A DNA stretch of 64,000 nucleotides. Source: Oscillospiraceae bacterium. GTDB taxonomy: Bacteria; Bacillota; Clostridia; Saccharofermentanales; Saccharofermentanaceae. Location of the stretch: positions 1-64,000 of the forward strand of contig CADCLV010000002.1 in the NCBI GenBank assembly GCA_902802325.1, read 5' to 3'. Below are positions 6,900 to 10,223 of the stretch, piece by piece. The notes below the pieces were generated by a model that saw only the letters and a program-made list of their open reading frames with translations, ran no database searches and had not been told where the DNA came from. The stretch's first letter is position 1. Every line of letters begins with the position of its first letter. Made by a program: the position numbers and the translations under genes.

Positions 6900-7793
6900 A
6901 TGCCTGAAAATAAAGGAAATATCAACTGGTTTCCGGGCCATATGCGAAAAGCCCTCAATGAGATCAGTGATAAGCTGAAATATGTAGATGTGGTTTTTGA
7001 GACTGTGGATGCACGTATTCCGATCTCCAGCAGAAACCCGGAGCTGGATCCGCTGGTGGCGAAAAAGCCCCGTATTCTGGTTCTGAATAAGGCCGATCTG
7101 GCTGATGAAAATGTAACTTCTTCCTGGCTTTCCTATTATAAGGAGAAAAATATACCGGCGGTCGCGATCGATGCGTCCCATAAGAAGGGGCTGGATAAGC
7201 TTCGTAATCTGGCAGTGGAGCTTTGTTCCGATGTGCTTTCCAAAGCAGAGGCGAAAGGAAGAATGGGAAGACCTGTCCGTGCTATGGTTGTCGGCGTTCC
7301 GAACTCCGGTAAATCCACTCTGATCAATGGCCTTTGTAACCGTAAGATTGCGGTTACAGGGGATATGCCTGGTGTGACCCGTGACTTTAAATGGGCCAGA
7401 TCCGACGGTCAGCTGGAACTGATGGATATGCCGGGCGTTTTGTGGCCGAGGCTTGGCACACCGAGAAATCAGCTTGTGTTGACCTTGACCGGCGCGGTAA
7501 AGGTGGAAGTCGTGGATGTAGTGGATGTGGCTTATTCCGGCATGCTCCTTCTTGAAGAGCTTTATCCGGATGCGCTTTATACCAGATATAAGCTTGCCCC
7601 GAAAGGATCCGATGAGTATATCGAAGAAGATTATGAGCGGTTTGAACAGGCTGCCAGAAATATGGGCTGCATCCTTTCAGGCGGAAGGATCAACGATGAA
7701 CGCTTTGCCAAGCTGTTCCTGGATGATTTCCGCAATATCCGCATCGGCCGGATCTCTCTGGAGACTCCGGAATATGGGAAGAAAGAAAAGTAG
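6900..7793 (+). CDS. ylqF: Ribosome biogenesis GTPase YlqF/RbgA
   Basis: A circularly permuted GTPase required for late assembly of the 50S subunit. The G motifs come in the order G4-G5-G1-G2-G3. NKAD lies near residue 63, GVPNSGKST near 131, PGVTRD near 152 and DMPGVLWP near 179. The N-terminus (INWFPGHMRKA) and the C-terminal helical domain are typical of RbgA, and the 297-residue length is normal. ATAAGGAG (6885-6892) precedes ATG 6900. It is followed immediately by rnhB, as in Bacillus, and has its own promoter because rplS is no longer contiguous. Confidence 0.97.
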   Translation: MPENKGNINWFPGHMRKALNEISDKLKYVDVVFETVDARIPISSRNPELDPLVAKKPRILVLNKADLADENVTSSWLSYYKEKNIPAVAIDASHKKGLDKLRNLAVELCSDVLSKAEAKGRMGRPVRAMVVGVPNSGKSTLINGLCNRKIAVTGDMPGVTRDFKWARSDGQLELMDMPGVLWPRLGTPRNQLVLTLTGAVKVEVVDVVDVAYSGMLLLEELYPDALYTRYKLAPKGSDEYIEEDYERFEQAARNMGCILSGGRINDERFAKLFLDDFRNIRIGRISLETPEYGKKEK

Positions 7794-7804
7794 TGGGTGA
7801 AGTC

Positions 7805-8434
7805 ATGACCAGAGAAGAGAAACTTATCGAAAAATATGAGGTTATGTCCGCTTTCGAAAAAGAATGCGCGGCAGAAGGAAAGGCTTTGTGTTGCGGTATT
7901 GATGAGGCGGGAAGAGGCCCTTTGGCCGGTCCTGTTGTGGCGGCCGCGTGTATCCTTGATCCGGATGTGCCGATCTATGGACTAGACGATTCGAAAAAGC
8001 TTTCTCCGAAAAAGAGAGATGCGCTTTATGATGAGATCACGAAGAAGGCCAAGGCTTTCTGTGTGATCCGTGTGGAACCGGAAGAAATCGACCGGATCAA
8101 TATCCTGGAAGCGACGAAAAACGCCATGCGTGCTGCGGTCAAAGGACTTTCCGTGAAACCGGATGTGCTTCTGATCGATGCCGTGAACCTGACAGGTACC
8201 GGCATTCCCGTAAAGCCGATCATTAAAGGTGATGCGAAAAGTAATTCTATAGCGGCGGCTTCAATCCTGGCAAAGGTTTCCCGAGACCGGATCATGGAAG
8301 AGTATGATAAAGAATATCCGGGATACGGATTTGCCCAGCACAAGGGATATGGCACCGCGGCGCATTATGCGGCGATCCATGAACTTGGGATCTCACCGAT
8401 CCACCGGATGAGTTTTCTGAAGAAAATGCACTGA
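7805..8434 (+). CDS. rnhB: Ribonuclease HII
   Basis: Cleaves RNA in RNA-DNA hybrids and incises at single misincorporated ribonucleotides. The signature GIDEAGRGPLAGP (about residues 31-43) holds the first metal-binding Asp and Glu. DSKKLSPKKRD and the later LLIDAV and DAKSNSIAAASILAKVSRD segments complete the RNase H-fold active site. I prefer ATG 7805 (209 residues), with a modest GGGTGA upstream. GTG 7793, overlapping the ylqF stop, is an alternative start. It completes the ylqF-rnhB pair. The next gene follows after only 17 bases, so the unusual trio downstream is probably transcribed from the same promoter. Confidence 0.95.
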   Translation: MTREEKLIEKYEVMSAFEKECAAEGKALCCGIDEAGRGPLAGPVVAAACILDPDVPIYGLDDSKKLSPKKRDALYDEITKKAKAFCVIRVEPEEIDRINILEATKNAMRAAVKGLSVKPDVLLIDAVNLTGTGIPVKPIIKGDAKSNSIAAASILAKVSRDRIMEEYDKEYPGYGFAQHKGYGTAAHYAAIHELGISPIHRMSFLKKMH

Positions 8435-8451
8435 GAAAGAAACGGACATAT

Positions 8452-9222
8452 ATGTGCGAGAGTGTGAGAAAACAGCTATTTCAAGTCAAACTGGCAGATG
8501 AGATCTTCCGGATCGAGTGCAGGTATTCCGAAACGAAGGAGTTTCTTTCGGAGTATCTGACTTGTGAGGAAAGTGTATCTTCTTATACTGTTTCTGTCGG
8601 ACCGGAAGATATCCGTTATGAACAGGAAAGATCCCGCATGTCAGCGGAAGCGGAAGGACGCGAGGTGATACACTGGTCGGATGCGTATCTTGAAAAACTG
8701 GCGGTCTATAGAAAGATCGCAGAGATCCTTCCGAAAAAAGGCGGGATCCTCTATCACGGCTCCGTGGTGGCAGTGGACGGAAAAGGTCATCTCTTTACCG
8801 CGATCAGCGGGACAGGAAAATCCACACATACCCGGCTCTGGCGGGAATATCTAGGGGATCGTGCCGTCATGATCAATGATGACAAACCCCTGATATGTAT
8901 CAAAGAGGGAGAAGTGCGTGTGTATGGAACACCCTGGGATGGAAAGCACCATCTGAGTATGAATGCTTCGGTTCCGCTGGTATCGATCGTGGATCTGGAA
9001 CGGGGAGAGAAAAACCATATTGAGAAAGTGGACCCCATGTCGATCTATCCGCTTCTTTTGCAGCAGATGTACCGGCCGACAGATCCGGATGCGTTGTCGT
9101 GTTCTCTGAAAATACTCGATCGCATCATGAAACAAGTGCATTTCTATCGGCTAAAGTGTAATATGGATATAGAGGCAGCCAAGGTTGCCTACGAGATTTT
9201 GGGAAGTGAGGAAAAGAAATGA
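8452..9222 (+). CDS. HPr-kinase-like P-loop protein
   Basis: A 256-residue protein resembling the C-terminal kinase domain of HPr kinase/phosphorylase and the HprK-like proteins found beside PqqD-like genes. The Walker A loop SGTGKSTHT starts near residue 119. NDDKP (about 142-146) and GTPWDGKHH (about 161-169) fit the conserved Asp and Gly-Pro segments after it. The N-terminal 100 residues are not the usual HprK sensor domain. It overlaps the following PqqD-like gene by four bases (ATGA) and is therefore translationally coupled. The phosphoryl acceptor is unknown: no HPr gene or lasso/RiPP precursor is nearby. Not to be read as the CcpA-pathway HprK itself. Confidence 0.75.
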   Translation: MCESVRKQLFQVKLADEIFRIECRYSETKEFLSEYLTCEESVSSYTVSVGPEDIRYEQERSRMSAEAEGREVIHWSDAYLEKLAVYRKIAEILPKKGGILYHGSVVAVDGKGHLFTAISGTGKSTHTRLWREYLGDRAVMINDDKPLICIKEGEVRVYGTPWDGKHHLSMNASVPLVSIVDLERGEKNHIEKVDPMSIYPLLLQQMYRPTDPDALSCSLKILDRIMKQVHFYRLKCNMDIEAAKVAYEILGSEEKK

Positions 9223-9482
9223 AGCTGAAAGAAGGATTCATTCCCCATATGGTAGAAGACGAGATGATGATCGTGGGAACCGGTTCTTCCGGATTTAACG
9301 GCGTCGTTCGAACCAATAAGACAGGTGCTTTTATCGTCGAAAAACTCAAGGAAGAGACGACCCGTCAGGAGATATTGGATGCCATGATCGAGCACTATGA
9401 AGGCGCTTCCTTGGAACTCATGGAAAATGATCTGGATAAAATGCTGACACAGCTTTCCGAAATCGGAGCACTGGATGGATAA
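9219..9482 (+). CDS. PqqD/RRE-like small protein
   Basis: An 87-residue protein with the PqqD fold pattern: a beta-rich N-terminus (MKLKEGFIPHMVEDEMMIVG), the motif GVVRTNKTGAFIVEKL near residues 28-43, and two C-terminal helices (QEILDAMIEH, LDKMLTQLSEIGAL). PqqD-type domains are RiPP recognition elements that bind leader peptides and hand them to modifying enzymes. This one stands alone, coupled to the kinase-like gene before it and overlapping the peptidase gene after it by eight bases. There is no PQQ pathway in the window, so the name indicates fold only. No precursor peptide is visible within the operon. Confidence 0.8.
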   Translation: MKLKEGFIPHMVEDEMMIVGTGSSGFNGVVRTNKTGAFIVEKLKEETTRQEILDAMIEHYEGASLELMENDLDKMLTQLSEIGALDG

Positions 9483-9939
9483 GATCTCTTTTGAAGAGTA
9501 TCTTTCGAAAAATGAGACCCTGACGTATAGAAATACCGGCTCAAGCATGATGCCGCTATTGAAAGAAGGCAGGGATCTTTTTACTGTACGAAGACTGGAA
9601 AAAGACGAGAGCCCGAAGGTCGAGGACGTGGTGCTGTTTCGGAGAAAAGGCGCGGACGGTGAGATGAAATATGTCCTTCACCGCATGATCTGCGATCATG
9701 GAAAAACTTTTGATTTTCTGGGCGATAATTGTATCAATCCGGAAAAGAATGTTCCCCGGGAAGATGTCTTAGGGATCATGACCGAATATGTCCGAAAAGG
9801 AAAGACCTGTAAAGTTTCAGACCGGGCTTTCCGGAGATATTCCTTTCGGATAAGACTATTCCGCCGGCCCAGGATCTTTTATAAGAAATGCCGCTTTAAG
9901 CTGGCAAAGATCTTTAGAAAACTGTTTTCCAGGAAATAA
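9475..9939 (+). CDS. S24/S26-type serine peptidase, soluble signal-peptidase-like
   Basis: A 154-residue protein with the signal peptidase/LexA-type catalytic core. GSSMMPLL (about residues 22-29) matches the nucleophile box GxSMxP. YVLHRM (about 66-71) matches the second box, with His where bacterial signal peptidase I has Lys, as in SipW/Sec11 types. NCINPEKNVPREDVLG resembles the third box (GDN...D...P...V.G). There is no membrane anchor, but the last 45 residues are strongly basic with aromatic residues, which might bind membrane or nucleic acid. It overlaps the PqqD-like gene. A role in trimming a peptide recognised by that protein is inference. Confidence 0.75.
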   Translation: MDKISFEEYLSKNETLTYRNTGSSMMPLLKEGRDLFTVRRLEKDESPKVEDVVLFRRKGADGEMKYVLHRMICDHGKTFDFLGDNCINPEKNVPREDVLGIMTEYVRKGKTCKVSDRAFRRYSFRIRLFRRPRIFYKKCRFKLAKIFRKLFSRK

Positions 9940-9948
9940 GGAGAGAGT

Positions 9949-10223
9949 ATGACCAGAAACCAGGATATCGGAAAAAAGTCGGAAGACTACGTGGCGGATT
10001 ACCTGGTTTCCAGAGGCGCGACGATCCTTAGCAGGAATTATTCCGTACATAATGTAGGTGAACTGGACATCATCTGCTCTTATAAGGGAAAAATCCTGAT
10101 ACCACGGCGTATTACTGCCATGAGAATCATATATCCCTGGATATCGTGTCGTATTATGTGGCGGCCGTGATCCATGACGACCAGGGGAATATACTGGACG
10201 TGAAGTTTACGCCTTTTTTCTAG
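9949..10223 (+). pseudogene. yraN: Decayed yraN (UPF0102 nuclease-like) gene
   Basis: The N-terminal 46 or so codons (IGKKSEDYVADYLVSRG, NVGELDIICSYKGKIL) match the YraN/UPF0102 family, which normally follows rnhB. The frame then changes near 10098. A second frame, beginning GAT ACC ACG at about 10099 and running to TAG 10221-10223, reads like the family C-terminus (SLDIVSYYVAAVIHDDQGN, then an aromatic end). About 30 residues between, including the E-x-K catalytic strand, are missing. I read this as an internal deletion with a frameshift. An intact ribosome site (AAGGAGAG) remains. In its own frame it would yield only a 73-residue fragment. A sequencing error could explain the frameshift but not the deletion. 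Confidence 0.6.

Follow-up and report, generated by a model that had tools for sequence, protein, structure and literature searches.

The closest described counterparts of the locus examined here are the LPP-type RiPPs (linear phosphorylated or polyphosphorylated peptides), known from a paper of May 2026 (PMC13381572) on the lpp cluster of Paenibacillus alginolyticus DSM5050. That paper describes an enzyme set of a kinase (LppK), an RRE (LppB), a SipW-like leader peptidase (LppS) and an MsbA-like exporter (LppD), and reports biochemical proof in Paenibacillus that the RRE binds the leader, that LppK phosphorylates core Ser3, and that LppS cuts the leader in an RRE-dependent manner. Repeated phosphorylation of a core Ser is a mark of this class. 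The paper gives the leader consensus as YxxPxVLxHQxIxFETxxS, describes the clusters as compact, located in Bacilli and placed among capsule genes, and leaves the purpose of the phosphopeptides open.

Partial likeness is found in other systems as well. Paeninodin-like lasso clusters share with our locus an HprK-like kinase, a stand-alone RRE and an ABC exporter, whereas SipW and Sec11 signal peptidases share the Ser/His active-site motifs of the S26 type. SynChlorMet (SCM) cassettes carry radical SAM proteins, and their ScmC is the best named family of our kinase; however, there is no radical SAM gene beside the trio described below.

A three-gene locus beside rnhB

The window, i.e., the whole stretch of 64,000 nucleotides that was analysed, contains the following features:

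7793–8434, + strand: rnhB, a housekeeping gene directly upstream of the trio; context only, outside the system
8452–9222, + strand: HprK-like P-loop kinase, LppK-like (256 amino acids), with Walker A GTGKSTH and an NDDKP motif
9219–9482, + strand: stand-alone RRE or PqqD-fold protein, LppB-like (87 amino acids), matching Pfam PqqD
9475–9939, + strand: Ser/His leader peptidase of S26 type (SipW/Sec11-like), LppS-like (154 amino acids), with weak S26 matches and Ser24/His69
9949–10170, + strand: remnant of yraN, with an out-of-frame deletion of 88 bp; context only

The original prediction of three overlapping genes for a kinase-like, an RRE-like and a peptidase protein was correct, the kinase and RRE genes overlapping by ATGA and the RRE and peptidase genes by 8 nucleotides. 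They are not ‘fused’, as it had worded it; a true single ORF for kinase and S26-type peptidase, 388 amino acids long, occurs in the relative L080 (7824–8990). The predicted position beside rnhB also holds, as 17 nucleotides separate the rnhB stop from the kinase start, and rnhB and the trio probably form one transcript. The promoter scan gave a score not clearly above those of shuffled sequences. The trio is flanked by rnhB and yraN both here and in its nearest relative, L032. In L032 an intact yraN of 120 amino acids occupies the position that matches the deleted copy of the window, where the deletion may be either a real loss or an assembly error. The dN/dS values against the nearest relative were 0.15 for the kinase, 0.10 for the RRE and 0.18 for the peptidase, which indicates purifying selection on all three.

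Folds and key residues of the three proteins

The kinase had no Pfam match over the cut-off; its best named family was NCBIfam ScmC (TIGR04249; E = 5e-6, far below the family cut-off), the NCBIfam HprK families matched it weakly, and a plasmid search returned weak partial matches and nothing better. It nonetheless retains an intact Walker A motif and NDDKP, i.e., the intact P-loop of an HprK-like, LppK-type kinase. The peptidase likewise gave weak S26 matches, such as that to signal peptidase I (E = 3e-5, which does not reach the family cut-off). Ser24, His69 and Asp84 are invariant in its family and Glu90 nearly so; by spacing, rather than by alignment with the LppS sequence, Glu90 falls at the position of the catalytic D93 of LppS. 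Both proteins are distant members of their families that have kept the key residues. Unlike SipW and Sec11, the peptidase is short, shows no transmembrane segment by eye, and is linked with a kinase and an RRE instead of Sec substrates; its C-terminal tail is basic.

The RRE is a clear member of Pfam PqqD (E = 8e-12). Its AlphaFold2 model (pLDDT 90.9) found the TbiB1–leader complex as best PDB match (TM 0.82), which predicts a lasso-RRE fold, the kind that binds leaders. A single-sequence phmmer search against the PDB had found nothing, but the RRE family profile did match LppB (9x8z_B), and in the profile alignment Asn33 and Asp71 of the window RRE corresponded to N33 and D70 of LppB, so that the Tyr-binding Asp is kept.

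Considering that lasso B1 proteins are the nearest counterparts of the RRE in both profile and fold, and that such kinases occur in paeninodin clusters, the locus could be imagined as a decayed lasso cluster of the paeninodin kind that has retained kinase, RRE and exporter. We regard this as extremely unlikely, since 44 genomes keep the kinase together with an S26-type peptidase, which is foreign to lasso clusters, and the trio is under purifying selection. The lasso reading was rejected, as neither a macrolactam cyclase nor a B2 leader protease was seen beside the trio, where the S26-type peptidase is found instead.

Co-occurrence of the trio and its exporter

Of the 115 family genomes, 48 had a kinase homologue. 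Kinase and RRE were both present in 47 genomes, the kinase alone in one, the RRE alone in one and neither in 66; kinase and peptidase were both present in 44, the kinase alone in four, the peptidase alone in none and neither in 67. Within a single genus, 30 genomes had both kinase and RRE, 55 had neither, and none had just one. Many genomes carry their RRE and kinase genes on different contigs, and yet the three genes occur together; therefore, adjacency is not what binds them. In the 51 neighbourhoods examined, the gene order varied (kinase–RRE–peptidase, RRE–kinase–peptidase, RRE–peptidase–kinase). The check originally proposed, i.e., whether the trio is conserved as a unit and which fourth gene accompanies it, was thus answered by a near-obligate co-occurrence in the genome sequences and, in most relatives, by an ABC exporter of about 560 amino acids. 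The sites are often housekeeping operons, such as rnhB–yraN, clpC, anaerobic ribonucleotide reductase or a CofD/YvcK-like gene.

A scan of GTDB genomes retrieved at least 577 kinase loci. Within 3.5 kb of the kinase in the best 80 of these, where many contigs end nearby, an RRE was found in 60, a peptidase in 57, an exporter in 39 and a precursor (see below) in 26. Isolates with kinase loci include Ruminococcus flavefaciens YAD2003, Y1 and ND2009, Ruminococcus sp. FC2018 and Faecalibacterium prausnitzii APC923/51-1. In YAD2003 and Y1, the genes for kinase, RRE, peptidase and exporter are contiguous.

The original prediction had recorded no transporter, which stands for the locus itself but not for the genome, where an MsbA-like exporter of the cognate type lies at a separate locus (contig C10 of G000, the genome of the window). 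It shares 62% identity with the exporter that is linked to the unit in L034, against 30% for the next paralogue. It lies directly behind an operon of clpC, identified in the analysis, and genes that we take to be ctsR, mcsA and mcsB (ctsR–mcsA–mcsB–clpC). In the relatives L033–L036, the clpC site holds the kinase with peptidase and/or exporter, and the simplest reading is that trio and exporter were split apart in this lineage.

Candidate precursor peptides encoded elsewhere in the genome

The claim that no precursor is visible was likewise valid at the locus, but not genome-wide. The suggested search for short ORFs with common N-termini revealed, close to the unit in 19 or more loci, a group of such ORFs with one shared N-terminal motif, and also five candidate precursor ORFs in the window's own genome (31–38 residues; profile E 5e-9 to 1e-5), all on other contigs:

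contig C67: MGIEQKTKYEELEVDVVVFDGTDVICASPNNETPREDA
contig C88: MEQYEKLKMEIITFEHEDVITTSLSETEGSIKTDIE
contig C4: MEKKYEALKLEIMEFDNEDVITASPYGNNEGQDGGGD
contig C81: MEKVEYEECKIEVIYFNSKDVITDSEFDSGWDE
contig C55: MEKYEEVKIEILEFENVDVITGSRDTNGEES

The leader motif reads Y-x2-[L/P]-x-[M/I/L]-E-V-I-x-F-x3-D-[V/I]-I-x2-S, and in an alignment of 15 precursors the Tyr, Phe, Asp, Ile and Ser were invariant, with Ser 19 residues after Tyr. In 61 peptides picked by a pattern that fixes these five residues, such that the other positions alone are informative, Pro occupied +3 in 16, and the tail after Ser was short (median 11), acidic and very variable. One precursor of the own genome differs from its orthologue in G113 by three amino acids, all of them at the leader end or beyond. 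NCBIfam gives the family no name, and a literature search found no paper on the leader motif.

Precursor and kinase were both present in 40 of the 115 family genomes, the kinase alone in 8, the precursor alone in 7 and neither in 60 (p = 7e-16, a guide only, as the genomes are mostly MAGs and related and p-values overstate their independence). Outside the family, in a class-wide draw of 243 genomes with at least 90% completeness requested, each of the 16 genomes with a precursor also had the kinase (p = 3e-10, to be read with the same reserve), although some of the class-wide kinase matches span the C-terminal part alone and may be other HprK relatives. Regarding the 8 genomes that have a kinase and no precursor above threshold, the diverged precursor types of L078/L079 and L069 show that the profile misses some. 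A genome may carry up to 13 precursors.

Four loci (L042, L067, L070 and L080) have radical SAM-type genes upstream of the kinase, and one of F. prausnitzii (L206) has the same leader behind a radical SAM-like ORF; it could thus be argued that the trio targets an unrelated protein, and that the peptides belong to another modifying system, e.g., radical SAM enzymes. We consider this very improbable, as no radical SAM gene was found near the own trio or most loci, and the peptide adjoins kinase, RRE or peptidase in many of them. In the locus of F. prausnitzii APC923/51-1 (L206:5926–8807), the kinase and the radical SAM-like ORF are accompanied by two precursors that combine this leader with Cys-containing cores; these peptides are possibly doubly modified RiPPs, and the leader may therefore be common to other modifying enzymes. 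In L080, a radical SAM/SPASM gene lies upstream of the fused ORF, and an RRE and an ABC exporter lie downstream.

Pairing of precursors with large secreted proteins

At 31 of the 34 loci inspected, the precursor lies shortly behind the end of a long ORF on the same strand. These ORFs mostly encode large secreted-type proteins with a common C-terminal domain, 42 of the 51 distinct upstream C-termini belonging to one family. The domain is predicted to consist of two similar modules, each of β-strands followed by helices; its model (pLDDT 80) had no PDB match at E ≤ 0.001, and Pfam gives it no name. Many of the proteins start with a Sec-type signal peptide, as judged by eye, and others carry DUF4838 (c16). 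In the own genome, the gene for a large secreted-type protein immediately precedes four of the five precursors; the exception is the C67 precursor, which itself precedes its secreted protein, and the partner of the C4 precursor has another type of C-terminus. All of this pairing lies outside the 64-kb window and was hence invisible to the original prediction. Within genomes, the precursor count correlated with that of the domain proteins (rho 0.88 overall and 0.51 among genomes with kinase and precursor); domain proteins without a precursor also exist (L215). The large secreted proteins were themselves considered as substrates of the trio and rejected, since they bear Sec-type signal peptides and the leader motif resides on the short ORF behind them.

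Since the precursors lie directly behind secreted-protein genes, the mature peptide probably has a joint function with its surface or secreted partner, a step inferred beyond direct precedent. A broader view, to which we give somewhat less than an even chance, is that of a genome-wide two-part surface system, in which one core would produce several phosphopeptides, each dedicated to its upstream secreted protein as ligand, anchor or assembly factor via the C-terminal domain, and maturation would serve protein display rather than a free natural product. It is rather unlikely, though by no means negligible, that the pathway is instead an ordinary LPP-type one for free signals or bacteriocin-like products, the position of the secreted genes being incidental and reflecting common expression only. 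The enzyme set is that of LPPs, the LPP clusters also lie among surface (capsule) genes, and the precursor tails are very variable, all of which would suit free products; however, the pairing is too regular for them, with 31 of 34 precursors behind a long ORF, most of one C-terminal family, and correlated copy numbers.

Alternatively, the trio may not act on the short ORFs, and these could instead be small accessory partners for the secreted proteins, with a co-occurrence that is merely phylogenetic. This would accommodate the seven family genomes with precursors and domain proteins and no kinase, two of which are nearly complete (G100, 99%; G031, 97%); in these two (L216–L219), kinase, RRE and peptidase were not detected. 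We nevertheless find it improbable, as the kinase accompanied the precursor in every one of the 16 genomes outside the family, the Tyr and Ser are spaced almost as the LPP leader and S3, and precursors often adjoin kinase and RRE.

Comparison with LPP-type RiPPs and proposed pathway

An HprK-like kinase, a stand-alone RRE, a SipW-like peptidase and an MsbA-like exporter are present both here and in LPP clusters, as are short precursors with an N-terminal Tyr motif, in which the Tyr-to-Ser spacing is 18 in LPP and 19 here; RRE residues N33 and D70 are also kept. The term ‘undescribed modification system’ can thus no longer be maintained in the strict sense, the enzyme set being that reported for LPP RiPPs in May 2026. 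There are also differences from the LPP system as set out in PMC13381572: the genes are dispersed over a Clostridia genome and do not form a compact Bacilli cluster; the leader is related yet distinct and does not conform to YxxPxVLxHQxIxFETxxS; Glu stands, by spacing, at the presumed catalytic Asp place; and one core goes with as many as 13 precursors in a genome, which are found beside genes for large secreted proteins. Such a layout is not described in the published account of LPP, although Clostridia members may be listed in the supplement of the paper.

In addition, the own genome had no match to PF14907. This is the family of the NTP transferase LppN, and a member is present near the trio in G102. 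Because leader, LppN, Glu, dispersion, precursor number and secreted pairing all differ, we take the system as a variant of the LPP type and not as a strict LPP member; we read it as a gut and rumen Clostridia variant of LPP RiPPs, with one maturation core and several scattered substrate cassettes, each with a secreted protein.

The trio is thus probably the maturation core of an LPP-type RiPP system used in trans. By analogy with the LPP experiments, the RRE (9219–9482) would bind the precursor leader via Y-x2-[L/P]-x-[M/I/L]-E-V-I-x-F-x3-D-[V/I]-I, the kinase (8452–9222) would phosphorylate the invariant Ser, 19 residues after Tyr, the SipW-like peptidase (9475–9939) would cut off the leader in an RRE-dependent manner, and the MsbA-like exporter would export an acidic phosphopeptide of about 10–15 residues. 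The original idea that the trio recognises, phosphorylates and cuts a peptide encoded elsewhere agrees well with the conserved unit, the five candidate substrates and the modelled lasso-RRE fold. LPP-type RiPPs would thereby extend from compact clusters in Bacilli to Clostridia that are common in gut and rumen (Ruminococcus, Lachnospiraceae, Faecalibacterium), where a RiPP core apparently works in trans on up to 13 scattered substrates, and the secreted-protein pairing offers a testable idea on the purpose of the phosphopeptides, which PMC13381572 leaves open.

Variant neighbourhoods

In a diverged branch (L069, L072, L073, L075–L077), the order RRE–peptidase–kinase–exporter is accompanied by a membrane acyltransferase. 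LPxTG-type surface proteins lie near the unit in L069 and L075–L077, and in L069 the leader motif heads a protein of 126 amino acids. In L034, L035, L049 and L048, TraX-like, acyltransferase-3 or TMEM164-like membrane proteins are encoded in or beside the unit, and these perhaps provide further tailoring.
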